NCBI GenBank assembly: GCA_037042915.1
Contig: CM073194.1
Location: forward strand, 2,914,001 to 2,978,000
Direction of reading: 5' to 3'
Length of the DNA: 64,000 nt
DNA from: Auricularia sp. M13
Lineage: Eukaryota > Basidiomycota > Agaricomycetes > Auriculariales > Auriculariaceae
Shown one piece after another: positions 1 to 18,100 of this stretch. The notes under the pieces were generated by a model, which was not told where the DNA came from, ran no database searches, and saw only the letters and a list, made by a program, of their open reading frames with translations. The position numbers were made by a program, and so were the translations under genes. How positions within the stretch are numbered: position 1 is the first letter of the stretch; the number at the start of each line of letters is the position of its first letter.

Positions 1-575
1 CTGGCGCGCAGGACATTGCCTTCGTGCCGACGTCGCGGAGCGCATGCTCCATTGGCGTGCGGCGCGATACTGCACGGAGGAGTGGGATGCAGCGCTGCTG
101 GATTGGGCGACGAGGGACTACCAGACGAGCCACGTGTATCGCATCGTGAATGGCCGCCCGGTCAACGTTTGAACATTCTCCTCTGAAGTATTACCATCTT
201 GCACATCATGTTTAGGATTAAACGCATAGGACGCCACGTTACGACAATTTTATGATGACATGACATTCATTCATGATTCTGAGACGACAGGGACGCCGTC
301 TTCTTAGTAGGGGGGGGAGATTGTAACGGTACAATCCCGGGACTCTTTCAGTCACCGGGCCCTTCTAGTAAGTTCCATGAAGACGGATTCTATGAGGTTC
401 TAGAATAGTTTTATTCATGTATATAAGGAGGAGGTTTGAGATTGAGATCCCCATCCTTCGGGATCCGGACTTAGCTCACACTCGTCCTCCGCACTTAGTG
501 CAATCTTATCTATTATCTTATCTACACAGCCACCCTTTGCGCGACCATATCAGACTACGAACGTTTACCCTTACA
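1..575 (+). mobile_element. 3' end of an LTR retrotransposon (fossil, cut by window edge)
   Basis: An open frame enters from the left edge and stops at position 172. After about 135 bases of spacer comes a purine run (about 307-320) of the kind used as a polypurine tract, immediately followed by a 254-bp LTR that begins TGTAA and ends TTACA. Only the 3' part of the element is in the window, so its family (copia or gypsy) cannot be fixed from the visible residues. The LTR ends within a few bases of a decayed WD40 gene end, which suggests insertion beside or into that gene. Confidence 0.7.
322..575 (+). repeat. 3' long terminal repeat
   Basis: The boundaries TGTAA...TTACA are short inverted terminal repeats. 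The repeat is preceded by a polypurine tract and carries a TATA-like stretch near 418-427. The second LTR copy would lie to the left of the window. Confidence 0.7.
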
Positions 576-584
576 ATAATTCTC

Positions 585-705
585 ATATGACAATCTTCCG
601 TACCCATACGCCATCGGAGGTGGCACACGCGAGAAACTTCCCGTCCGGTGGAGCATCTCGTTGACATCCCAAATGCGAATTTTCAGGTCGTCTCCGACTC
701 GTCGG
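585..705 (-). pseudogene. Decayed C-terminal WD40 repeat (relic of a DUF6535-WD40 type gene)
   Basis: On the minus strand one frame gives KIRIWDVN and another gives PDGKFLACATSDGVWV. These match, in order, the last two blades of the WD40 protein encoded at 21651-23053 (TIRVWDIN and PDGNFLACAASDGVWV). The roughly 20 residues that separate them there are missing here and the frame changes between them, so this is a decayed remnant and not a functioning exon. No DUF6535 or linker sequence is seen next to it. The adjoining LTR ends at 575. Confidence 0.65.
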
Positions 706-865
706 CGCCGGCTGCTAAGTACAGATGGTAATCGAAGACTAGCGAGTCTATGACTTGCGCTGGACTTGCGAAAGGCCCGTGGTGATGCGCGACACAAGAT
801 TATCTTTATTATCTTTGATGCATACGGTATCCTACAATACAAAAACTATTCGTGGTGCTGAGTTA

Positions 866-3800
866 TTAGAATCCAGCCCCTGTGTGGCCGGGGCCTGTGC
901 CGACCGTGCTCGCGGGGACGGTGCCGCCGGTCTTCTTGGCCTGGCCTTGGGCGACCATGGCCGGGTTATGCGACAGCTTTCCGACGCCAGCCTCAATAGT
1001 CCCTTCAATTTTGTCGAGAGTCGAGGGATGCGTGCCGGCCATGCCGCCACCAGTATGGGGGCCAACACCAGCGGTGTGAGCGGGAGCACCGGCACCAGCT
1101 GCGACGCGCTGGTCGTGCTTCTCGCCGTGGCGGCCCATTGCGTGACCTGCTACACCGCCGAGGAGCGTGTGGCCGGTCGCTGTTGCGGAAAATGTTTACT
1201 TCTAACTTTCTCGTTCGTAACGGACATGAGAGACGCACCAGCACCGGCACCAGCACCGAGGAGCGTGTCTCGCTTTGTGTGACCGTGAGTCTCAGGATCT
1301 GAGCATGTTGGTGAGATTGAGATCGCGTATGGTGTCCAAACTGTGCATTTAATCCGGCGCCCCCCGTCGGCTTATTTTTGTGCCCGTGGTAATACGCCGG
1401 GCTCCCGCCGATCCCGTCGTAAAATTGTGCCCCCTCCATGTAACAAATTCCTTCCACGTAATAAAATTTCCTTCCACCTAATAAAAATTCCTTCCACGTA
1501 ACTCAAACTCCTTCCACGTAAGTTTGGCCTTTTGTAAATGTGACTCCCGCCGTAAATGTGCCTCCCGTCGTAACTTCCCGGCGTAACTCCCGTCGTAACT
1601 TGCTCCCTGCGTAACTTCCCTCCGAAAACCGGACTCCCGGCGTAACTTCGTCCCGTTGTAACTTCCTCCTGTTGTAACTTCCTCCTGTTGTAACTTGCTC
1701 CCGCTGTAAACCTGAGTCCCGGCGTAACTTGCTCTCGGCGTAACTTCCTCCTTGCGTAACTCCCTGCGTAACTCCCTGCGCAAGTTCCGCCCGTCGTAAC
1801 TTGTACGTTTGTAGGCTCCCATTGTGATATTCCAAAGCAGAGTCAGTGACTCAAATTCTCTATAATTAAGTGAGATAATGTGCACAAAGGATAGTAGAGT
1901 AGATGAAACAGATGCATGTTGAGCAGGTCAGAAGTGCGAGGAAGCTGGCAAATCAAAGCAGATGGACATTGGTGATGAATGCTGAGTGTAGTGAATGTGA
2001 TTGCGAGGAATGGGAGAGGAACTGAGATGTGTACAGCGAGTGGCAAATCGATAACAGATCACAATGATTGATTGGGCAAGACAACGCATGAGAGCCGAGG
2101 TCATGTACATCTCAGTGTTGCTGCTCATTATGATGCTGCTGAGGTGAGTGGGCTCTGAGCAGATCAAAGGAGAAGACAGGGGAGAGGCTGGGATTTACCG
2201 ATTGATTCAGACTGTGTCACCAGCTTGACGTTTCGCCACAAGAACTGTCATCTAATAGCTCCAAAAAAACTTTCAATATACATTTTCAGCTCAGTTCACA
2301 TGACAATACTCGATTCCGGCAATTTCCGAAACTTGCGCACGCGCGCTTAATTTTGTGCGCAACTTTCGGAAATTGCCGGTGTAAGCAGCATTGGCAATTC
2401 CTGACTGAATCAGACAACATTGAGAAATAGAACTTACATAATCGAGTCTAAGAGCTAAAAATATTCCGCAATTTGTGTCCATGGCCGCCATAATGCCCAT
2501 GTCAGGCTGAATTGAAACCACAACCAATCTTTGCCCCGTATCTCAACAACCAGTGCTCAAATTCTGTGAATGAGGGCCTCTTTCTGATTCCCCCAGTGTC
2601 CCTAACGTGTGTGCTCCATTGCACGTAACCACAAGTTTGTATGCTGAGAGACAGGAACTGCTCTTGCTTGATATTCAGACACGCGGCTGCTGTACAACCA
2701 GTTCGCACTCGATGATAGACGCCTCCTGATGATGTGAACAAAGTCTGAAATGCGAGAGGACTGGGGCTCACTAGCCACTTGTGCATCTGATGCCAGGGGG
2801 ATATCTGTCCATTCTCTGGCTCTCCTGCACTTTTTATATACACAATCAGCTCCCCGAATCAAGTCATTATAGTCACTGAGGTATCCTAGCTACTAAGAGT
2901 CCAGTTCTGTACATGAGTAATGACGAGCCGTGCTCGTGGCAATGAGGGACGCCCCACTGAAACCCACCGTTTCCGCATATGGACTTCCCGATTTGGCAAG
3001 ATTTGCGCTGTCAGCACCGCCACTCTCAGCCCTCGCACGTCGCATCCCGTCGCACTCGCTCGTGTCCGTCTATCCGCCTAAGCCCTCGTCTTCAGATTCC
3101 ACCATTAATCCGGACGTACCAGCCCGGGAGGACCGCAGCAGCATTATCAAATCATGCCGCTGCCATCAGCAGCGCTGCTCCCGCTCTCCCCCTGTCTGGA
3201 CGTCGCCTCCCTGCTTCCCTCTCGTTCCTGACCCTTCATATTGCATACCGTTCGCCTCGCCTCGTCATTCTGCGCATATTCCGACCTTTACTTTCGTGTT
3301 TTGTCCACTCCTTCACCGTCTCGACTTTCTGCCTCCGTCTGCTGTACACGGCTTGAGATCCGGCTCTCTGTCACCCATATGCTCTCGCTGACTGTACTTA
3401 AGCCTCTGACTACGTGCTTTGATCCCCAGAATATAGTTCCCCACTCTCTCTCAGCTGCTCTCAGTGCTCTCAGTCCTAGAGCTCAAATCGGCTCCTCAGC
3501 TCCCTCAAGTTCATTCTCACTGCGTCAGATCAGCGGCCATCCTTCTGACAGCTTCCCACTTGTTCCTATCGACGAACTCTGTCTATTCCGTACGCATTTA
3601 GGGGATTTATCCGCATCCATGCTATTGGGCTAGTAATCCTACTGGGTCCCCGCCCCTGACTGCTCTAGCTCCTTCTGCCCCAGAGCCTGCGCGTCAGTAA
3701 AGTCTGGAGACTGTCTCTGACACCAGCCATAGCAACAGAGCTAGCATTGGCTCTACGCACTCTGGGTTGCTTCGCCAGAACAGATATAGCGCTAGGACGC

Positions 3801-5321
3801 AAATAGAGCATCTTGGACTTGCTGGACACATGTGTGATTCATCGTACCAAACATGTGCAGTCTTTGAAGCTAGGCAATGTTCCTGTTCACACTGCTTGGG
3901 AGGTGTTGGCATTAGGCAAATGAGCGCAACCACATAGGACCTTTGGCTGAGGCAACCATGCAGGTATCATCTTGGCTTTGCCTGCTTCCTCCACCCTTTT
4001 GTTTAGAGTGTGCTTACCTGCTAGCAGTGTCACACAGCACCAGGTGCCATCAGTCATAGCCACAGTTCCATTATTTAGCTACAGAATGGCCAATTCTGCC
4101 CATACCGGCAAATTCCGAAAGTTGCGCACAAAATTAAGCGCGCGTGCGCAAGTTTCGGAAATTGCCGGAATCGAGTATTGTCATGTGAACTGAGCTGAAA
4201 ATGTATATTGAAAGTTCTTTTGGAGCTATTAGATGACAGTTCTTGTGGCGAAACGTCAAGCTGGTGACACACCCCTGTCTTCTCCTTTGATCTGCTCAGA
4301 GCCCACTCACCTCAGCAGCATCATAATGAGCAGCAACACTGAGATGTACACAACCTCGGCTCTCATGCGTTGTCTTGCCCAATCCATCATTGTGATCTGT
4401 TATCCATTTGCCACTCGCTGTACACATCTCTGTTCGTCTCCAATGTAATCACAATCGCATTCACTATGCTCAGTATCCATCACTGATGTCCATCTGCTTT
4501 GATTTGCCAGCTTCCTCGCACTTCTGACCTGCTCAACATGCATCTGTTTCGACTAATCTGCTATCCTTTGTGTGCATTATCTCACTTAATTATAGAGAAT
4601 TTGAGTCACTGACTCTGCCTTGGCATATCACAATGGGAGCCTACAAACGTACAAGTTACGATGGGCGGAACTTGTGCAGGGAGTTATGCAGGGAGTTACG
4701 CAAGGAGGAAGTTACGCCGGGAGCAAGTTACGCCGGGACTCAGGTTTACAGCGGGAGCAAGTTACAACAGGAGGAAGTTACAACAGGAGGAAGTTACAAC
4801 GGGATGAAGTTACGCCGGGAGTCCAGTTTTTGGAGGGAAGTTACGCAGGGAGCAAGTTACGACGGGAGTTACGCCGGGAAGTTACGACGGGAGGCACATT
4901 TACGGCGGGAGTCACATTTACAAAAGGCCAAACTTACGTGGAAGGAGTTTGAGTTACGTGGAAGGAAATTTTATTACGTGGAAGGAAATTTTATTACATG
5001 GAAGGAATTTGTTACATGGAGGGGGCACAATTTTACGACGGGATCGGCGGGAGCCCGGCGTATTACCACGGGCACAAAAATAAGCCGACGGGGGGCGCCG
5101 GATTAAATGCACAGTTCGGACACCATAATCGCGTCCAGCACGACGACATACATCCCACGCCGCCCCCGGGAGCGGTCATTCCAGCGCCTGCTGGGACGCC
5201 CGTGGGCTGAGTTACTGCTGGAGACGAGAGTCGGAGAGTCAGAGTTTTTGCTTTGTCTATCAAGACTCAAAATGCACGTACAGGGAGCAGTGTAGTTCGG
5301 GTTCGTAGTCGTAGAGTGCAT
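866..5321 (-). CDS. Glycine-zipper / CsbD-like small stress protein, with a 3.8-kb transposon in intron 2
   Basis: Four exons on the minus strand: 5321-5282, 5217-5152, 1298-1239 and 1179-866 (480 nt, 159 aa). All phases agree. Introns 1 and 3 are 64 and 59 nt with GTACGT and GTGCGT donors. Intron 2 starts with GTATGT at 5151 and ends CTCAG at 1299, and contains the whole foldback element. Without the element and one copy of its target duplication it would be 47 nt. The protein has a Thr/Pro/Gly-rich head, an Ala/Gly-rich zipper (LLGAGAGA, LLGGVAGHAMG) followed by RHGEKHD, and a tail (LDKIEGTIEAGVGKL, then AQGQAKKTGG) resembling the CsbD-like repeat of small fungal stress proteins. Molecular function is unknown. 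If the long intron is spliced correctly, the insertion leaves the protein unchanged. Confidence 0.75.
1328..2396 (+). repeat. Left inverted arm of the foldback element
   Basis: The arm is the reverse complement of 4088-5127 with a small number of differences. A minisatellite-like zone (about 1435-1820) has 16-bp units such as GTAACTTCCTCCTGTT and 19-20-bp units containing CCTTCCACGTAATAAAA. Because the units are not multiples of three, they keep several frames open without being coding. Confidence 0.85.
2316..2379. repeat. 64-bp imperfect palindrome at inner end of left arm
   Basis: Begins CCGGCAATTTCCGAAA and ends TTTCGGAAATTGCCGG. The arms are 25 bp with one mismatch and a 14-base loop. 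The same hairpin recurs at 4105-4168, so each foldback arm ends internally in its own hairpin. Confidence 0.9.
4088..5127 (-). repeat. Right inverted arm of the foldback element
   Basis: Reverse-complement partner of the left arm, carrying the same minisatellite zone (about 4640-5030) and the same inner palindrome. It ends at GGACACCATA followed by the second target-site copy. Confidence 0.85.
4105..4168. repeat. 64-bp palindrome at inner end of right arm
   Basis: Second copy of the hairpin described at 2316-2379, in inverted position. One base in the outer stem differs (CCGGCAAATTCC instead of CCGGCAATTTCC). Confidence 0.85.
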
Positions 5322-5373
5322 GATGATCGTTGGAGTTATTCCTTGTAAACATGAACCTGAAAATTCCTGGGCC

Positions 5374-5478
5374 TTTATACCTTGAGGAAGGGGCTGACGT
5401 CGGGTGGCGTCATGTTTGAGGGAGTGGTGCATGCGCAGTTATGCAGGTGGTGCCTGCATGAGCGCGTCATGACGCGCT
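5374..5478 (-). promoter_or_regulatory. Likely promoter of the CsbD-like gene: TATA box and CRE/bZIP-type sites
   Basis: Reading on the minus strand, a TATAAA lies at 5379-5374, about 55 bp upstream of the start codon. Further upstream are TGACGTC (5395-5401) and an 18-bp perfect palindrome AGCGCGTCATGACGCGCT (5461-5478) holding two facing CRE half-sites. CRE sites are known targets of Atf1/Sko1-type stress bZIP factors in fungi, which would fit a small stress protein. That regulatory link is an inference. Confidence 0.5.
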
Positions 5479-6726
5479 AAACTTGGCGCGAGGACAGCAC
5501 GTGACCTGGTTCCATTACTCGTGCCACAAGCGCTCCGCATCCAACTTTGGCATATGAGTGCCATCATGCTTTCCCACCTCAGAATAGAGAATGCGCTCGT
5601 TGGAGCGGAAAACCGGTATCCGCAAGACGGCAATTATTGCTTATGTTCTGTGCAAAGGATGGCGGATTGTAACAAGGGAACACAGCGGCGAGCTTGATAG
5701 ATGGTTCATTTGTAAAAACGGGAGAACCAACTCTTAGCCCGCGGCGATGGGGTTGTACTGCGGACGGCGCTCGAAACTGGCCAAGTCGAGAGCAAAGGCA
5801 CCACCGGAGTCAGACCAACGAACTGGGCACGGAAGGCTGAAGTTACAGAGTCTCGAAGAGTTGAATGTGGCCGCCAGTCACCATCGCGCGAGTCCTTTGC
5901 GCTACTACTGAAGTTTGTGACTGCAGAGATAAGGTTGCGCCTCGCGCCCGTCGGTGATCGCCACCTGCTGTGTTCTAGACACAGAAGCCCAAGCAGGGAG
6001 GCCCAGTCATTCCGGTATCGATGTTGTATATAATGCCCCAGTGTTGCACGCGAACCGTGTGTAGGTCGACTTCTTCCGGCGACTGGCATTCGACAGACAC
6101 AGCGGCCGTGGACCTCCAAGACACAGTTACAAATAGCCCGAATGCCGCAGAGGTGGTTGAGATAGTGTCGAATAGTGTATATTACCAGGAAAATGTTGTA
6201 CGCAGGAGAAAATCATCGCCCACGCACAGGATCATAGAGGGGCCGCCCTGGCACCCGGGTGTGCGTTGAGAAGCGGAAGCAGCCCGAGGGCTGACGTGTT
6301 GTACTGCGAATCGAAATCGTGGTGGAAGCGGCTCGGAAGCGTGAAAAAACGGCGTGAAGATTTGTGACTCCGATCCTCGACCCTTCGTCTTCCTGTTGTT
6401 CGCAAGAGTCCGCAACAATCGCACCAAAGCCGAAGCCATCGAGAAAGACATTCAAATCCTGGAGAGCCAACTCTATACCTGCGTCGGGCTCGTGTTTACA
6501 CTCTGACCTGTCCATCCGGTGCGTTTCAAACTATCTTCGTCTGCCAAGAGGCTATGTCGGCCGCGGTTCAGAGCGGCTGCAGCCTTGTGGCATGCTCTAA
6601 TACTGCGTCGCCCCACGCTCCAATCCTGGTCGATGTTACAGTGCTCATGGTACATGCAGGATTAGCGGGCCGCGGTCGCCTAATCATAATTACCACGGCC
6701 CAGCAACCATTTTCTCCCAGCACGCT
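5479..6726. other. Intergenic, no gene recognised
   Basis: About 1.25 kb. Short open frames exist on both strands but none has a recognisable domain. A plus-strand stretch near 6410-6495 reads as a short amphipathic helix (KAEAIEKDIQILESQL) like the coiled coil that precedes the F-box in many basidiomycete F-box proteins. It has no start codon and stops before the F-box gene, so it may be a gene remnant. Confidence 0.5.
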
Positions 6727-7980
6727 ATGTCGGACATGGATTATACCCACAAGCTGCCGGCGGAGATGTTTTCCGCGATATTGGGCGAGCTCTCGGTGCC
6801 CGACCTTTTATCGGCCTCGCTCGTGAACGGGCAGTGGCGTCGGAACGCCCGTGATCATCCAAAATTCTGGCAAAATATTTCAATCAGGACGTTGTCCATG
6901 TCCGCAATCGAGTTTTTCGAGACACGACTCAGCCTGGGCGGTGCACGCAACATAAAGTCTCTGCGAATCATCATACCCGGACTCCCCTGGGCGCTTCTAA
7001 CTGTACTCCAAGTCTTTTCTCGCGTGTCAGAAAACATCAACAGAATCGAGGAGCTCGAAATCGTAGTCCACAATGCCCTAGCAGGATTGCTATTCCGGGC
7101 GCTCACAAGTCCAGCGCCGGTCCTTCGCTCTTTTGCAATTCATTTCGATCATTCCGACCGCATGGCCACGAATTCGTGCCCTTTGATTTACCTGCCGGAC
7201 CGTATTTTCGCTGCTGCATGCCCGCTCCTCCGCACGGTTCACATCAATGGAGCCGCAACTGCCTCGCTCCTGCCAACGGCATTCCGTACGACCACATACC
7301 TCCGCATCAGAACGCATACGAAATTCTCGATGCTGCCGGCCTGGTTTGACTGCTTCCCGCATTTGAAAGAGCTCTCTATCTTTGCCCACAGCTGGCAGAT
7401 TCCAAAACGAGCAATCAACGCTATCCCAACCTCGGCACTCCGACGACTGCAAAAACTCGAGCTTGTTTTCGAAGAAGACAGCTTCGCCGTCATGAAGGCG
7501 CTTTCCTGTTTGCATGTGCCGCATATGACTTGGAGTTTGTCTGCCAGGCAGGTCGCCGAGGAACTCCTTCCCCGGTTCATCCTCGGGCCCCTGCGTCTGA
7601 AAGTCTGTTGTGACGATGCAGACAGTTTGATCGTCCATCTCCACTTCGAATCGTGTTACCCAGACGCCGGTAGGACGCTCCACTTCGTCGGCCTGCGCGA
7701 CGAGCTCGAGCTCACGTCCGGAGACACGTATTTTTCGCCGGAAATTCTCGAGCGCCTCAAATCCTTGCGGCTGGACTCGAGCCTCGCTTTCTTGTTGAAA
7801 CGGATTGACCGTTTCCCTGCGCTTACGACGATCGAATACAACAAGTGTCTCGACGACTGGCCTCGCGCGGAGCGGCCGTTTGCACATCTGAACCTCCCGG
7901 TGCTTCAAGAGGTCGTTCTTTACAACGACGGTCGCTTCGTTGACCGTCTCATGACGAACAGCGTCGACGCCATTCTCTGA
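6727..7980 (+). CDS. F-box protein, single exon
   Basis: 417 aa, intronless. The N-terminus (about residues 7-50: LPAEMFSAILGELSVPDLLSASLVNGQWRRNARDHPKFWQ, here abbreviated from two adjoining motifs LPAEMFSAILGE and PDLLSASLVNGQW) is a typical F-box. This domain binds Skp1 and makes the protein a substrate adaptor of SCF ubiquitin ligases. The rest is leucine-rich and irregular, as in the large lineage-expanded F-box families of agaricomycetes, and has no second recognisable domain. Two in-frame ATGs (6727 and 6733) open the gene; the first is used here. Substrate unknown. Confidence 0.8.
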   Translation: MSDMDYTHKLPAEMFSAILGELSVPDLLSASLVNGQWRRNARDHPKFWQNISIRTLSMSAIEFFETRLSLGGARNIKSLRIIIPGLPWALLTVLQVFSRVSENINRIEELEIVVHNALAGLLFRALTSPAPVLRSFAIHFDHSDRMATNSCPLIYLPDRIFAAACPLLRTVHINGAATASLLPTAFRTTTYLRIRTHTKFSMLPAWFDCFPHLKELSIFAHSWQIPKRAINAIPTSALRRLQKLELVFEEDSFAVMKALSCLHVPHMTWSLSARQVAEELLPRFILGPLRLKVCCDDADSLIVHLHFESCYPDAGRTLHFVGLRDELELTSGDTYFSPEILERLKSLRLDSSLAFLLKRIDRFPALTTIEYNKCLDDWPRAERPFAHLNLPVLQEVVLYNDGRFVDRLMTNSVDAIL

Positions 7981-8159
7981 CCGCCTGGAAACGCGCCTCA
8001 TCTGTCGAATCTCTCGTGTGAAGAACGCTTCCGAAAGTGTGATGCTGTATTATATTATTCTCTGATAGGTTTGCACACCCAACAATCTGTTTCCACGCAA
8101 TATATGTCGTTCATAGTTTATCCATAAATGTGACACACGCGCCCCGGAATCCACTCGCT

Positions 8160-9335: not shown

Positions 9336-10447
9336 GCCTTGTCCCCGAGGCCGATGCTACGACCCCGACCTCAGCTGAAGTGGTTTCCTCTTGTGCGGCC
9401 TTTCACGCAGCGGCGCAGCCGACTAGGTACCAGGACCGCTTCAAGTTGAAGCGTTGCAACCGCTCGACCGGAACGCTCTCCTGTACGTTGCGGCTTCAGT
9501 TCGACATCGCACATTCGTAAATATCGCTTGAAGTAGCGCCTTCAATTCACCAGAGTCGTATCCACATGGCGGAGCTGACGCTTGGCTGAGACTGCAAAGA
9601 AAACCCACGCAGGGCGACAAATGACGACCTTCATCGAGCTTCAGTATGATATTTAACGGCAAGAAGACAGCTAATTTCAGCCGTTGAGCTGTACCAGAGC
9701 GTCCGCGGCGTACCTGTCGGTCATTGCGCGCGTGGGAGGAGGATGACAACGGCATCAAACCATTGCAACTCCGATTGTTGCGCTCGTCACGGTCGTCTTC
9801 TTCCGCGTCGTCGTGCCATGCCAGTTACCGCGCCCACTGACGCTATGCCCAGCCGTACCTGCATACAGAATCCCGCCTGCGTCAGCTCTTCACTGAAGCT
9901 GCGCCGCTGAACCGGCCTCCGGCGTGACTCTGAAACTGCCGGAGGTGTCTGTCGCCTACGAAAGGCGTTCTCGCAAATGCAATACGCCAACTGGTTCTTG
10001 GCGCTGTCCGTGGCCATCTTTTCTAAACTGTATCTCATCTCCAATCCCGCCAATCGAGTCTGTTCCGATTTAAGGAACTTATTACGAGCCGCTACATAAC
10101 GCTGTCTTGCCAACTCAAGCTGCGTTCTCCCGGGCCATTACTGAATGGTAGATTTCATCGGGTCTCGACCAGACTCCGAGGCTCCCATCCTTATCATATG
10201 GCAAGGGGGTGACAGGTGGTAGGTCACAAGTGCAGCTTGACAGACTCAACGCGAATGCTGGCGGCACTGGGCCCGACTCGGACTCTGCGCTGGGATTTGC
10301 TCCGAGTCTGTGCTGTTACTATTGCGATTCAACTTCTACTTGCCGTGCCCAGATAGTAGCGGCGCGCATGCACGTAGCACCGATTCGACCAACGCGGCCC
10401 GCGCTACACTGTAACTCATCTGCCACTGTCGGACGACTCGCCGCGGG
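9336..10447. other. Intergenic, no gene recognised
   Basis: About 1.1 kb upstream of the Harbinger element. A 100-codon frame on the minus strand (9787-10113) has helix-like composition but no ATG start and no recognisable domain. Nothing else is supported. Confidence 0.5.
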
Positions 10448-10450
10448 ATT

Positions 10451-10505
10451 AGCCAGTTTGCGGAACCAAATTATTCGGTTCCGGCCGATTGCGGTGCTTC
10501 CGCCG
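10451..10505 (+). repeat. Left terminal inverted repeat of Harbinger element
   Basis: 55 bp, identical to the reverse complement of 13130-13184. It contains a nested imperfect palindrome (CGGAACC...GGTTCCG) that could be a transposase or Myb-protein binding site; that role is an inference. Confidence 0.9.
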
Positions 10506-10569
10506 CTTTTTTTCACCTGTTCCATTCTGCTCACTCTTGCTCGTACAACGATACACAACAACACACGCC

Positions 10570-11816
10570 ATGGCTGTTACACGCCGCCAAGCTCAGAAAG
10601 CACCCGATAAAGCCTCTGGGCCGCCAATTGAGCCCGCTGTGGAGCAGCCCGCAACGGATGCCGCCCAGCCGTCGGTGCGTTTATCCTCCACGCTGCTTAT
10701 CTGATCTAACATCATTCCAGACGCTATCACTGGCTGAGCGCCTGGGTCCCGCCGCTGGCACGGTCAGACAAGATGTCGACGCTGATTCAGAAGCAGTGCT
10801 GGGTTCCGACGACGACTCCGAGATGCCGTCCGAGCACGAGCATCAAGACGTGCCGCAACAAAGCGCAGTTTCTTTCCGTTGGACAAGCTATCAGGATCGC
10901 AAACTTGCCAGCGCTATCCGGGAGTTCGAGCCTTTTGTGCAACCGCACTCTGAGGTCGAGCACGCATGGGAGCGCGTGATAGACAGCTGCACCAGCGATC
11001 CACAGTTCGGTCGGGCACTGACCAGCAACGCTGCAAAGCAGAGGCTTGCCCGGCTGCTCAAGTTTGAAGAGGTGTGTGTTCTATGACCGGTGTTGCCATG
11101 GTACTGAAATTTGTGCAGAGAGCAGAGACGGCAGCCAAGCAGGCAACTGGAACAAATGAAGAGGTCACTACGCACAAACGGGTGAGTTCATTTGTGCTTT
11201 GGCAATGTTGTCTAATCCTCGATAGGTGATGGAGGAGCTCCTTCAGCTTTGGAACGACCGAGACGTGATGAAGCGCATGAATGCGAAGTCCGGTCGGACC
11301 GCAGCAAAGGCATCGGCCGAACGCCAGGCCGGAGAGGAGCTGCGCGAGGCTGCACTGGCCAACCTTGTGCCGCGAGAACAGCTTTCTGATATCTCGCAGC
11401 TGCCGGGAGCGACGCTTCGTGAGAAGGGAGCTCAGCGGAAACGGTGAGCATCTTCTACCGCGCAAAGGACCTCGGCTGAATGTCTCCTCAGAGTGCGGGA
11501 AGATCACACGATGCCATCCGACAAGGAGAATTCAGACAGTGCGGAGCCAGTCTCAAAGCGTGCTCGCCGCAGCAAAGGGAAAGCCAGCACCGTCGAGGCA
11601 ATGTCGGACATTCTGGAGGCACGACGAAAGGTAACCGAGGAGCGCCTTGCCGCAGCACGAGCCCGTGAGGAGGAGCGGCATCAAGCGCAGATGGAGCAGG
11701 GCCGTGCAACGCTCGAGAGCATCCAGGCCCTTGCTCGTGTGCTTGAGCAGACTGTGCAGAGCGCAGAGCGTGATCGTACGTTATTCATGGGTCTGCTTGC
11801 CGGCAAAAAGATGTAG
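10570..11816 (+). CDS. Harbinger Myb/SANT-like DNA-binding protein
   Basis: Five exons: 10570-10674, 10721-11071, 11119-11181, 11226-11443 and 11492-11816 (353 aa), all with GT-AG introns of 44-48 nt and consistent phases. The N-terminal half carries a Myb/SANT-like segment with the pattern FRWTSYQDRKLASAI...AWERVIDSC...ALTSNAAKQRLARLL. A basic patch (SKRARRSKGK) and a long charged coiled coil (EARRKVTEERLAAARAREEE) follow. In Harbinger elements this partner protein escorts the transposase to the nucleus and to the transposon ends. It converges on the transposase gene within the same element. Confidence 0.8.
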
Positions 11817-11826
11817 TATGGTACAA

Positions 11827-13063
11827 CTAGTCATCTAATTCCATCTCATCGCCCTCTCCAAAATCGACCATATCATGATGCACATCAAACTCTCCAAAGC
11901 TAGACTCGAGTGCGGCCTGTATGAGAGTATCGTCGTCCTCGGGCAAAGGCTCGCCGTTCAAATATTCCGAGAGCGTAGGAGGCATGCAGTCAAAGTAGAC
12001 GGCTGTTTTGTTTGGTGTGAAAATGCTGTGCGCGTTGGCGAGCAGAATGGCAACGAGGTAGTAAATCCCGACAGGCTGCAAGAGAACCTTCTGGTTCTTC
12101 TTGAAGTCAAGGAACGCGAAGAGCTGGGTGATGTGTCCAAACGCCCATTCAACAGATTCCCGCACTTTACTCATGCGGGTGTTGTAGCGGCCCTGCTCGT
12201 CGGTGACATTGCCCTTGAATGGCGATTGCATGTGCTGGGAGAGCCCATAGGCAGGGTCGCCATAAATGCACAGGTTCTCTCCATCAGGTCCATGAGAGTG
12301 AAGCTCAAGAATGCGCTCGAGATCGCTGAGGCGAAATACGGTGAGATCATGGCGCCTCCCCTCGATTGGGCCATAGACATGCACAACGAGACCATCAGGG
12401 GTGCTGACAATCTGGTACTTGAGAGCATGCACACGCTTCCAGCCGTTGAACACAATCCGCTGGTTTCGCACAGGTCGAGCAATGCTGCGGAGTGTGCCAT
12501 CGATGAAGCCCCAGCAGTTATCGAGTGGAGCACCCTTCAAATGGATAGCATCCGCAAAAGCGCGCAGGCGAGAGGCTGTTAGTCGCTTTTTGTCAAACTT
12601 CAGAACATGTCGCCATCGTTTAAAGATGAAGTATGCGGTGGTGCGAGAGATGCGAGAAAAGCGAGTGGACTCCCAGCCAAACATGAGTTCCATGTCGACG
12701 AGACGAGCAGGGTAGATGAGACGCCGTAGGAGCATCGCTAGAGCGGTCATCCTGTCCACCTTAACGTCGTTATCGCACACGATCGTCTCCGGCAATTTGA
12801 GGGCATCAGCAAGCTGATGCATCTCCCCCCAGGTGAATCTAGCATATGAATGAGCCATGCAAACTCACAGACATGTGTATAGCGCACCTGAAGTGAGTCT
12901 TACATATGTCATCCCCCAACATACTCAGGTTAAGGGCGCCACCAGTCCGGAAACGGCCCTCAGCAGCCGCATGAGATCGGGCAGTCCTACTCTCCCATTC
13001 TTCAAACATATGAAGCAAATCAGTCTCCTCGAGCAGTTGGGCCTCTAGAATCGCAGTCTCCAT
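11827..13063 (-). CDS. PIF/Harbinger DDE transposase
   Basis: Two exons: 13063-12888 and 12838-11827, joined by a 49-nt GTGCGC...TAG intron (395 aa). The expected features are present in order: the leading helical segment (FTWGEMHQLADALKLP), the first catalytic Asp in GFIDGT, the second in GDPAYGL, and the catalytic Glu in VRESVEWAFG, followed by an acidic tail. This is the DDE_Tnp_4-type nuclease that cuts and pastes the element. The catalytic triad is intact and no in-frame stops are present, so the enzyme is plausibly functional. Host codon usage and perfect terminal repeats suggest a recent copy. Confidence 0.9.
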
Positions 13064-13129
13064 ATTTGCAGATTACAGGATGGTATAGAACACGAAGATC
13101 GATGGTGCAGCTCAATCGGCGGATTTAAC

Positions 13130-13184
13130 CGGCGGAAGCACCGCAATCGGCCGGAACCGAATAATTTGGTTCCGCAAACTGGCT
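13130..13184 (-). repeat. Right terminal inverted repeat of Harbinger element
   Basis: Perfect partner of the left terminal repeat, followed by the second ATT target copy. Confidence 0.9.
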
Positions 13185-13187
13185 ATT

Positions 13188-15154
13188 CGCACAAAATAGC
13201 ACAAGCATCCTTCTTGCCCCATGGGGCTCGGCTAGTAGTACGTACGTACGATGTCCGCACTCTATCGCTTGACTCGGAAGCCAGCCTGAGTTCGTGGCGC
13301 ATTGGATATTTGACTGGATCCTGGGCGCTGCTTCGAAGCGGCCCCGGCGCTGGAACCGGCGGCATTCGAGATTGCTGCGCCCATACTGTATGTCACTGTG
13401 TGTTTGAATGTGCGCCCATCAGTGTGTTTGAATGTGGAAGCGCGAAGACGGGCTGCGTATGCACATCGACTGTATAATTCGACAGCAGCCACGTGTGCTG
13501 AACATTGCGACATCTCCGCTTGTGCACTGGCAGAAGGGAAATTCGTCAAGTGTGCCTGCATTGCATCGCATTGCAGCTGGACCGGCGCCAGTTCTTTCCA
13601 TCAACGTCCATCATGATCTCAGCAGCGCGCGCTGCTCCCCGCACATGCATGTATGTACACTGGCGGGAACGTACACTGGCAGGAACTGGAAGCTTGCAGG
13701 CTGAGGTTAGGCTTCGCGGGAACTATGTCAGCTTCGCGGTTTGAAGGTTAGCAGGAGCGCCCGCGCCCGGCGGTCTGGTCCCCGGCGGTCGGAAGCTAGC
13801 CCAAGATCCCGGGTTTACGTTCACTCGGACACGGCCCTTGCTGTACGGGGGGAAGGTTGTGGGGGAAGTGTGTAGTGCGGCGAAGATGCCGCCAAGTGAG
13901 AACGACTCACGAGGGCTGCCAGTGGGGAGATTCTGTTACTGTTTACATACAGTACTTGTGATTATGGGCGCGTGAGGTTCGGAGCGCCGAACGTGGATGA
14001 AAATGAAGCTAGTCCAAGATCCCGGGTTGACGTTCTCTCGGACACGGCCCTTGCTGTACGGGGGGAAGGTTGTGGGGGAAGTGGGTAGTGCGGCGAAGAT
14101 GCTGCTGCCAGTGAACCCTCATCCTGATTGACCGGTGAGAACGACGCGGACGCGGACGGGGCTGGGGCTGGGAGGATGATACTGTAGGTTCTGTTACATA
14201 TACTGTAATTGATTAGCTAAGTATGGGCGCAGGCACCAGGCGCCCCTTAGGCTCGAAGGTGCGAAGCCTCATTACAGTAACTTGATATAGGTATCACTGA
14301 CGACATTCAATGTTCAATGTTGAAACGCGGGGTGGGTGGTGTTTGCGCGGCGTATTCAATTGGGCATTCTCACGCGCGTCGCGCGTCTCGACGGAAGATT
14401 GAACAGCAGTGCTGAGTGAACAAGCTCAGGCTGCTTGCTGACTCAACCGTAGCTGCTCAGCCTCGAGCCACATTTAGCGTACCATATCGTCGGTATCACA
14501 CGTCTACAGCTCGCCGCGAGTCGGGAACCACCAGTGGCAGCATACATCGCACACTGGCAAGCGTGAGCTCAGTCCGCGATGTCGGATGCGGGGTCAGCTG
14601 CCCGCGCATGCTCAACGTTACATATTCTTTCTACTTACGACGGAGATCGACTGTAGCTCAATTGGGATAAGTTATGCGTGCCACAGCCAAACTCATGGGA
14701 AGCGGCAGCGCCCCGGATCCACATTCGAAGTTCGAAGTTGTCATGCACGGTGTGAGTCTACTGCCATGTTTACGGTGACGACGCCCGGGCAGAGGTGCGG
14801 GGGAGGCAACGTGAGGAGGGAGAACGAGGTTGGTGATGGTGAGATCAGGGTCGCGCCTAAACAGGTGTGCAGTTAACCTAATTACTGTCCGAATTAATTC
14901 AGAACTCCCCCAGCGTCCCGCGTGCGTACGTACGCTGGGGTACACCTACGGTGCGCTATCATCCTATGCACTTGGGTGGAAGTTGAACCTGCAACCAGGC
15001 GGACCGGATTGCCGCAGCCCGCAGATTCAGAAGGAACAAACAAGCTGTCAGTGTCAGAGTGTCAAAAGAAATATTAGCCGAGGCTGGGAGCAGAGCGGGG
15101 CACTGCAAACAAGCGCAATGCAATAAAGACAGGCCGCTCCTTGGACTCCGGCCC
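13188..15154. other. Intergenic region upstream of the LOV photoreceptor
   Basis: About 2 kb without a convincing gene. It holds the 213-bp tandem duplication at 13792-14229 and short repeats of TGTGTTTGAATGTG near 13395-13435. A tRNA A-box-like string near 14652 was examined and rejected. Confidence 0.55.
13792..14229 (+). repeat. Two-copy tandem duplication, 213-bp spacing
   Basis: GAAGCTAG.CCAAGATCCCGGG, then CGGACACGGCCCTTGCTG and GGGGGAAGGTTGTGGGG recur at the same spacing in copies starting at 13792 and 14005. Each copy ends with GTTCTGTTAC...ATGGGCGC. The second copy carries an extra segment of about 47 bp. No coding sequence is seen; it may be duplicated regulatory DNA. Confidence 0.75.
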
Positions 15155-18100
15155 ATGGACCTGTTTGCGCTGCTCGCGCTCAGCCCGCCCAGCTCCGAGT
15201 CAGAGTCTTACTCCTCGAGCGACACTATGGACCAGGCCGACGAGTCCCCTTCGGGCCGCGCGGGAGACCGATCTGCTGCGCCACCATCGCCAATGCCAAC
15301 GGCGGACCTGGCCCAGCGCGCGCACTCTGCTTTCGACCAGGCCGCGAGTGGGGGAATGGAGGACCCGCTGGCGTTTGCGATCCCGCCGTTCCTGTGGCAG
15401 GGCGTGCTCGGCGACCCGTTCGCGCAGCAGCACGGCAGCTACAGATACGACCCGTACGCGTACTCGTACGGCGATGCTGGCGCGGACACGGCGGCGGGCG
15501 CCAGCAAGCCGTCCCAGACTCAGACTGCGCTGCCACCGATTCCGAACTCGAAGGCCCACGCGGTTGGCGCCAGCCTGAGCCTCGGCGGGCATTCTGCAGC
15601 GTGAGTTTTTCCGCGTTCTTTTCTTTTCTTCTGCCAAATTCCTTTTTCTTCGTCCGTTCTGTTCTGTCTGCTCGCTCTCGCCGTGTTATTGCTCCCGCGT
15701 GCCGTCATCGCCATCCCCAAGTTCGCGTCGGCGATCCCGCTCGCGTTTCAGCTGCACGCTACGCCAGCCTCAGTGATTTTTCGCTCTCGCAGTGGTCACC
15801 GGCGTCGTCATCCACTGCCAGCGTCCCCCAACGGTGCTTCTGGCCCGCCACACTGAGCGCGCTTCGCTTCTTCCGGCCTGCTCGGCCTTCCGCTGTCTCC
15901 ACTCGAACTCTATCTATCCGTGTGTCACGCGTCCCTTGCCTTGCCCGCCGCCCGGGCTGAACTCTCTTGCCCTCTTTGCTCTTTGCCGACATTGGCGCTG
16001 CGCGGGAGGCGGGATTCGGTTCTGTTCCTGTCAGGGCACACGGGCAGTTCATTTGTGGCCCATTGTTTGCCGCCGGCGCCGCTTGCATATGGGCGCAAAA
16101 AAGGCACACCCGCTCCGCACAGACCCAATGACGCGTCGCACTCCATCATCCATTCGCTCACCCATCTCCTCATCCCCATCCCCATCCTCGTCTTCGTCCA
16201 TTCCCCTGCCAGCCACCGCTTTTCCCCAAGCCACGAACAGTTCCCGCTTCGCAATCTTTTCGCACGCTTTGACAAGACGGCAGTTGGCAGATCTCCGTTA
16301 ATTATCTGAATGATGATGGACTGGGCATCTCCGGTGCAGGATCCACCGCGTCCTGGCGTGCATCCCCATGAGGCGCCCCGTGCGCGCCTTCCCGGACTCA
16401 GACTGCATTGCATTGCAGTCTCGAGTCTCGAGTCTGGACCCGGGCGTCTCTCGCATCCACCGTCCGCGTCATTCCCCACTCACCATTTTTCTCTTTGTCC
16501 GTTTTGACTTCGCCTATTTCCCCTCCCATTCCTTGATTCTCGCGCACGCGTCGCTGACGATTAGCCGGCGTTTCCAGCTCGAGCTCGCCGATCGATCCCC
16601 GCACCCACAGTCAGAGTAGTGCGCTGCCCATGGCCCCGGCGCACGTCTCGTCGTCGTCGGCGGGCTACGCGTTCCCTGCGGACCTCTTCGGCCCCGGCTC
16701 CGCCTCCGGCTCGTCTGCGCACTCCAACTCGACGCAGACGCAGACGTACGCCCCGCCGCCCGGGCCGCCTCCTCCTCCTCGGCCGTCTCATTCTCACCAC
16801 CCGCACACCCAACCGCATCTGCACCTCCACCCGCACGCGCACACCGACACCCTCCCCCCACCGCCGCAGCCGCCCTCGCCGCCGCTCCCGCCGGCGCGCA
16901 CGCGCGACGAGAACGGGGTGCCGTTCTACACGAGCACGGGCTTCGACATGCTCTCGATCCTCGCGCAGGTCGTCAACCGGCCGTCCCCCTCGATCGACCT
17001 GGGCGCGGTGGACCTCAGCTGCGCCTTCTGCGTCGTCGACGTGCGCGAGCGCGACCAGCCCATCGTCTACGCCTCGCCGATGTTCCTCCTCCTCACGGGC
17101 TACGCCGAGGGCGAGGTCGTCGGGAAGAACTGCCGCTTCCTCCAGGCGCCCGACGGCGAGGTCGCAGAAGGGCAAGAAAGGAAGTGGACCGGCGCGAAGG
17201 AGGTGTATGCTATGAAGCATCATCTGAGGAAGGGGCGCGAGGTGCAGGTTGAGCTGGTTAATTATCGCAAAGGCGGACAGAGGTTTTTGAATTTGGTCAC
17301 GGTCGTGCCCGTCCCGGACCCGAAGACGAAGGAGAGTGAGGCGTTTTTGGTCGGGTTTCAGGTGCGCTTTCTCGTCCTTGCTTTTTTTTCTTCTTGCTTT
17401 ACTGAGAGGTGAGATGTAGGTCGATCTGAGCGAGGGCCCGAGCGCCGCGATGAGCAAGCTGCGCGACGGGAGCTACCTCGGCGACTACCATACCATGGGC
17501 CTCCCGCCCGCGCTGCTCGGCCGCGGCGATACGTATGCGATCAGCCGCGAGCTGCCGCAGGTGCTGGGCACGGGCGCGGATGTCGCGGCGACGCAGGCGA
17601 AGATTAATGCGCTGTTGTTGGAGAATAACTCGGGTGCGTCTTGTGCTCGCTTGTGTTCTTGTGCTCGCTTGTGGTCTTGTGCTTCGTGTGTGATTCCCCA
17701 TCCCTCCCGTACATTTTCGGCCAAGCCCTTCCCGCTGTCTTCCACTCCTCGTTCGCCTCTTATTTTCGCGCTGTTCTTCGCCCAGTTGACTTTATGCTTC
17801 CCGGCTTGCTCCCCCGATCCTTCTCACCTCTCTTCGCTCCGCCTCCTCGCGCAGCTTCACTCGCTCACGCTCCTCCATTTCCGCAGACTTCATCCACGTC
17901 GTCTCGCTCAAGGGCGCCTACCTCTACGTCTCGCCGTCCATCTCGCGCGCGCTGGGGCACGACGCGGCGAGCCTGATCGGGAGCTCGCTGCTGGACCTCG
18001 TGCACCCGGCGGACCGCGTGCCGCTCGAGCGCGAGCTCAAGGACGCCGGCGTCGCGCAGGCGGGCACCGTGCGGCTGCTGTACCGCATGCGCGTCGCCGT

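Follow-up and report, generated by a model that had tools for sequence, protein, structure and literature searches.

A foldback transposon, probably of IS3EU type, within a 47-nt intron of a CsbD-like gene in Auricularia sp. M13

The 64,000-nt stretch of Auricularia sp. M13 analysed here (the window, C2:2914001-2978000 of a 52.1-Mb genome in 14 contigs whose transposons point to a basidiomycete) carries on its minus strand a small gene with a weakly CsbD-like C-terminal stretch. The second intron of this host gene contains a foldback transposon of 3,800 bp (window 1328-5127). The features of the locus are given below in the direction of the gene; exons and introns follow our gene model, target site duplications were read from the sequence and its flanks, and the element, its parts and its duplications are listed without strand.

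5282..5321, minus strand: exon 1, with the ATG at 5321
5218..5281, minus strand: intron 1, 64 nt, GTACGT..CCAG
5152..5217, minus strand: exon 2, 66 nt, ending in phase 1 (T/AT)
5134..5151, minus strand: donor part of intron 2, beginning GTATGT at 5151
5128..5133: target site duplication ATCGCG, donor side
4084..5127: right inverted arm with tandem sub-repeats, ending GGACACCATA
2401..4083: central part of the element, enclosed by the two arms
2921..3696: nested solo long terminal repeat (LTR), 776 bp, TGACG..GCGTCA, flanked by GTAA
2317..2379: palindromic repeat of ~63 nt in the left arm, with a mirror copy at ~4105-4167 in the right arm
1328..2400: left inverted arm, starting TATGGTGTCC
1322..1327: target site duplication ATCGCG, acceptor side
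1299..1321, minus strand: acceptor part of intron 2, CTCAG ending at 1299
1315-1311, minus strand: branch-like site CTCAC, a by-eye match to CTNAY
1239..1298, minus strand: exon 3, 60 nt
1180..1238, minus strand: intron 3, 59 nt
866..1179, minus strand: exon 4, with the weakly CsbD-like stretch (profile match) and the stop

The four exons join in phase to form a 159-aa frame with a stop. The CsbD match in its C-terminal stretch is weak (E 0.0028; 17.9 bits against a cut-off of 40), and a search for the host protein in plasmids and viral contigs found none. Intron 2 now measures 3,853 nt; subtraction of the element and one copy of its duplication leaves an ordinary intron of 47 nt (GTATGT...CTCAG). 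The A of the branch-like CTCAC sits 13 nt before the last intron base, and the element ends are 24 nt away from the host donor and 29 nt from the host acceptor. A first-pass annotation of this DNA had described a 3.8-kb foldback element within a 47-nt intron, with ATCGCG duplicated between the GTATGT donor and the CTCAG acceptor and with flanking exons in phase. Its coordinates and duplication hold to the base, as do the phase of the exons and the restored intron, and the inverted arms that it put at roughly 1 kb measure ~1.05 kb.

An intron of this kind could also be a chance match between two separate genes. Equally good in-frame introns are possible at 115 of 6000 random window positions outside the element (GTRNGT donor, CTNAY, CAG or TAG acceptor, 40-80 nt, 60 nt open on each side), or at 7 of 6000 with a GTATGT donor, and exons 1 and 2 are short. 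The in-phase four-exon frame argues against two genes, and so does a paralogue elsewhere in the genome. A genome search with the host protein returned the host gene and two weak matches, the better of which lies at C6:3372793-3373041 (E 0.047). Our model of this paralogue has exons of 88, 60 and 299 nt and introns of 49 and 53 nt; its splice sites were picked by reading frame, and one acceptor, a NAGNAG, could shift by 3 nt. Its first intron is empty, 49 nt long and in phase 1 inside a Tyr codon that precedes Pro (T/AC CCC), and the element-bearing host intron is likewise in phase 1 inside a Tyr codon before Pro (T/AT CCT). In both genes a 60-nt exon follows, and after it an intron in phase 1. 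Over their whole length the two proteins are significantly similar (0 of 500 shuffles). Nine weak CsbD-like matches comprise the host, the paralogue, two loci that we read, which showed no recognisable matching intron, and five that were not read. Because the paralogue shows an empty intron with the same phase, the same Tyr-Pro pair and the same 60-nt exon, exons 2 and 3 are very likely parts of one gene, and two genes joined by chance appear very improbable.

The inverted arms of the element measure 1,073 bp (left) and 1,044 bp (right) and align in three blocks (1328-2006/4449-5127, 2010-2182/4272-4444 and 2213-2400/4084-4271), each with 96% complementarity. Both arms contain tandem arrays with units mostly of 12-20 bp. 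The termini, TATGG..CCATA, fit the pattern TAYGG..CCRTA, and the terminal inverted repeats exceed 30 bp. No transposase was recognised in this copy; reading of the middle (2401-4083), of which no Pfam scan was made, showed no prominent long frame, and an Rfam scan of window 1-8000 at gathering thresholds gave no match. The 63-nt palindromic repeat of the arms also stands alone at seven other genome sites and is a tiny unit resembling a miniature inverted-repeat transposable element.

The element belongs to a family. Used as a query, the left arm's outer 679 bp matched 15 places in the genome, and the terminal 30-mer identified 13 ends genome-wide (none with the reversed control pattern). Six copies are two-ended, namely the window copy and five that the first-pass annotation had not included:

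C1:1728868-1734143: duplication CTGCCG
C9:3605768-3627629: duplication TGCGAG, right end partly doubled, ends 21.9 kb apart
C11:1084090-1118654: duplication GTCTCA/GTCTAA, ends 34.6 kb apart
C10:594297-600198: no duplication
C11:2866070: degenerate right end, no duplication

The 6-bp duplication is thus perfect in three of the six (window, C1 and C9), agrees at five of six bases in C11:1084090 and is absent from the C10 and C11:2866070 copies. Among the four copies with a full or near-full duplication, one lies in an intron, one in a coding frame and two in ambiguous settings. For the coding frame, rejoining the flanks of the C9 copy yields a 687-aa frame across the insertion site, with WD40 repeats in its left part. 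Since this copy, 98.7% identical to the window element, interrupts a coding frame, the family is not restricted to introns.

PMC12730594 and PMC10045372 give 6-bp duplications and TAYGG..CCRTA ends for IS3EU transposons, and PMC8955403 records IS3EU in Ganoderma. The present element is alike in its 6-bp duplication, its termini and its terminal inverted repeats of more than 30 bp, and an integrase-core frame stands beside the arm of one relative. This relative, one-ended and diverged, lies at C9:737895-738303, and its arm is 80-82% identical to the window arm. An rva_4 integrase-core frame (C9:736580-737241) lies ~650 bp from the arm, the whole locus spanning C9:736580-738303; beside this one decayed relative stands the only candidate that we found for an IS3/IS481-related DDE transposase. 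The genome holds 36 rva_4 matches, several in open frames. Unlike IS3EU, the window copy carries no recognised transposase, its arms of ~1 kb contain tandem sub-repeats, and no intact autonomous partner was found. We consider it a non-autonomous foldback transposon whose ends fit IS3EU and which probably belongs to an IS3EU family.

Foldback describes a shape and not a lineage. The FB and Galileo foldback elements of Drosophila have long inverted arms, composed partly of short tandem repeats, and a small middle. The window element shares these long arms with internal tandem repeats and the small middle; its ends and 6-bp duplication, however, point to IS3EU and not to the FB and Galileo lineages.

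Several copies have themselves received insertions. The 776-bp insertion of the window copy, likewise an addition to the first-pass annotation, is shared with the C9 copy and absent from the C1, C10 and C11:2866070 copies. Outside the family it matches eight sites over positions 1-776 and one over 1-774 (73-90% identity), and among these sites are pairs on one strand, spaced by roughly 9-27 kb. Full-length matches in such pairs identify it as a solo LTR. The C9 copy contains a further insertion of ~18 kb (C9:3608255 to about 3626205) with a 9-bp direct repeat, which is missing from the C1, C10 and C11:2866070 copies. The first kilobase of this insertion has 12 long genome matches, itself included, at 93-100% identity, so it looks recently active. 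It carries a KDZ-associated CxC4 domain (E 2.2e-29) and, at a score under the Pfam cut-off, a stretch resembling Tet_JBP.

The window copy could instead have arisen by internal deletion from a transposon of 22 kb resembling the C9 copy. The two sides of the latter align at about 98.6% with element positions 1-2508 and 2500-2912, and the 9-bp direct repeat lies at the junction. The C1, C10 and C11:2866070 copies, however, are continuous at the junction point, and the first kilobase of the inner ~18 kb is repeated in the genome. The C9 copy therefore most likely gained a nested insertion, and we rejected the origin of the window copy by deletion, which has next to no probability. A parent of Polinton/Maverick or KDZ type had also been suspected from the wide spacing of the ends of the C9 and C11:1084090 copies and was dropped, because the inside of both looks like nested foreign elements. 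Target duplication sizes were also weighed against such a parent: PMC12730594 lists 7 bp in Kyakuja, 8 bp in Zisupton and 2-3 bp in Plavaka. Between the ends of the C11:1084090 copy we observed a Plavaka transposase and a reverse-transcriptase frame.

What the insertion does to the host gene depends on the fate of its RNA. The locus may be silenced, with the 3.85-kb intron retained or the RNA ending inside the element, and with methylation or double-stranded RNA from the arms shutting it down. A retained intron would bring a translation stop 86 nt into the intron, and the sense strand contains four hexamers resembling poly(A) signals. Comparison of the window and C9 copies is consistent with methylation: in the left part 33 of 2,487 sites differ, and 17 of these differences are of CpG type (the window copy lost 5 and the C9 copy 12), on a background of 276 CpG positions in 2,487 (binomial p about 1e-8). 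Outside the element the window has an observed-to-expected CpG ratio of 1.17; within it the ratio is 0.81 overall and 0.68 for the middle. On the other side, the left arm is not CpG-depleted (0.97, compared with 0.95 in host exon 4), and in the right block only one of six differences (over 413 sites) is CpG-type. The host reading frame is also intact, but this says little about silencing because the insertion looks young. The CpG-type excess between the two copies thus hints at methylation of the family and slightly favours silencing.

A second outcome is that the paired arms would bring the donor and the branch site within tens of nucleotides of each other, so that the intron acts as a short one. 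The predicted fold of the RNA from exon 2 to exon 3 (3,979 nt) has an energy of -2618 kcal/mol, far below the -1512 to -1776.5 kcal/mol of eight random segments of equal length, and 1,008 arm-arm pairs; the random segments have 68-147 pairs spanning more than 1.5 kb. A giant hairpin is therefore predicted from the arms, as the first-pass annotation had proposed, and the short distances from the splice sites to the element ends agree with a rescue of this kind. The special closeness of donor and acceptor that the annotation attached to the hairpin did not stand: their graph distance in the predicted fold is 20, and the random segments give 14 to 128, with one of the eight smaller, so closeness is not diagnostic. 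In addition, the polymerase reaches the second arm ~3 kb later than the first, and a long RNA duplex may attract RNA interference. Rescue by the hairpin appears unlikely on balance.

Splice signals inside the element would also matter, and acceptors were counted as CAG/TAG triplets only. In sense orientation no CAG/TAG is completed downstream of the donor before intron nt 511, and none is accompanied by a CTNAY site before 860; the GTRNGT nearest to the host acceptor within the element lies 1,139 nt before it. Read inward, the 11 family arms of more than 440 nt lack a CAG/TAG until nt 354 or beyond (487 nt in the window copy), and two shorter arms (316 and 440 nt) have none. Read outward, GTRNGT occurs in two of 13 arms, both times more than 900 nt from the end. 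A single-base shuffle of the arms expects ~11 CAG/TAG per 500 nt, an unfair comparison because the arms are tandem repeats. In simulated substitutions over seven arms no new CAG/TAG was observed against a mean of 4.5 (15 of 2000 runs at or below). We do not claim selection against arm acceptors, since in a control of nine trimers absent from the consensus TCT is more strongly avoided (9/1000) than TAG (66/1000) or CAG (105/1000). That outer arms splice-silent in both orientations, together with arm pairing, would let a kilobase transposon in a 47-nt intron be removed whole by the host sites is improbable.

Insertion of a foldback transposon into an ordinary short intron has good support from the target duplication, the random-position control and the paralogue, and we regard the identity and placement of the element as firm. 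Taken together, we estimate a probability of roughly 0.68 that the locus holds a non-autonomous foldback transposon of IS3EU type inserted into an existing 47-nt intron of a CsbD-like gene. An integrase-type (DDE) transposase, presumably an IS3EU enzyme, would have moved the element in trans, and it would have joined the middle of the pre-existing intron, duplicating ATCGCG. Because the element contains none of the three host signals (donor, branch site and acceptor), the route from host donor to host acceptor would remain intact for splicing. We tentatively anticipate that part of the RNA is spliced correctly, at reduced efficiency, and that much of it keeps the intron or is truncated; neither a full hairpin rescue nor a complete null is expected. 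Such partial splicing of a 3.85-kb intron is an uncertain prospect, somewhat short of even odds; silencing was weighed about equally and rescue by the hairpin lower. According to a review (PMC8624252), splicing that proceeds by intron definition is sensitive to the length of the intron, but U1 tethered to the polymerase could permit long introns, which would fit partial splicing without a hairpin.

Several results pull the other way. The rva_4-bearing relative has one recognisable end only and a stop inside the match, and the 9-kb regions around five other rva_4 genes contained no similar TA..TA end pair with equal 6-mers; the link to a transposase thus rests on one decayed locus. Taken by themselves, the N-terminal 60 residues of host and paralogue are no more alike than chance allows (62 of 500 shuffles), BLASTP matches only the C-terminal part, with the significance coming from residues 107-140, and automatic alignment leaves the two Tyr residues out of register. 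Finally, every other intron in our two gene models, four in all, measures 49-64 nt, so one of 3,853 nt is far outside normal size.

The window contains other elements. Just downstream of the host gene, at ~323-576, a sequence resembles the 3' end of an LTR retrotransposon, with a purine-rich tract followed by TGTAACGG..CCCTTACA (by eye only). At 10447-13188, inverted repeats of 62 nt (97% complementary) enclose a DDE_Tnp_4 frame (11827-12858, minus strand), which we take to be a transposon of PIF/Harbinger type. A frame with a PAS_9 domain (16630-17412) is presumably part of a gene resembling a white-collar-type photoreceptor.

Among known systems, the introners and symmetrical stwintrons of fungi (PMC8469720, PMC9860276) are alike in that an inverted-repeat element lies in an intron and a hairpin could approximate donor and acceptor. 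In contrast to these, the intron here seems older than the insertion and the element supplies neither of the splice sites used: donor and acceptor are host sequence, and the paralogue has a matching empty intron. The window element also lies between target duplications, and the family copy on C9 interrupts a coding frame. A literature search, at the level of titles and the beginnings of abstracts, for inverted-repeat or transposon insertions spliced from introns returned no matching case, which is not proof of absence. The element adds a member to types already described, and the locus is of use as a natural test case. If it is correctly spliced, a spliceosome used to introns of ~50-60 nt would remove one of 3.85 kb when the insert folds on itself, and the locus would offer a clean natural test of structure-assisted splicing. 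If it is not spliced, the locus would illustrate how a gene is silenced by a foldback element. In both cases this basidiomycete genome is shown to harbour a foldback family, probably of IS3EU type, in which copies have taken up insertions of their own.

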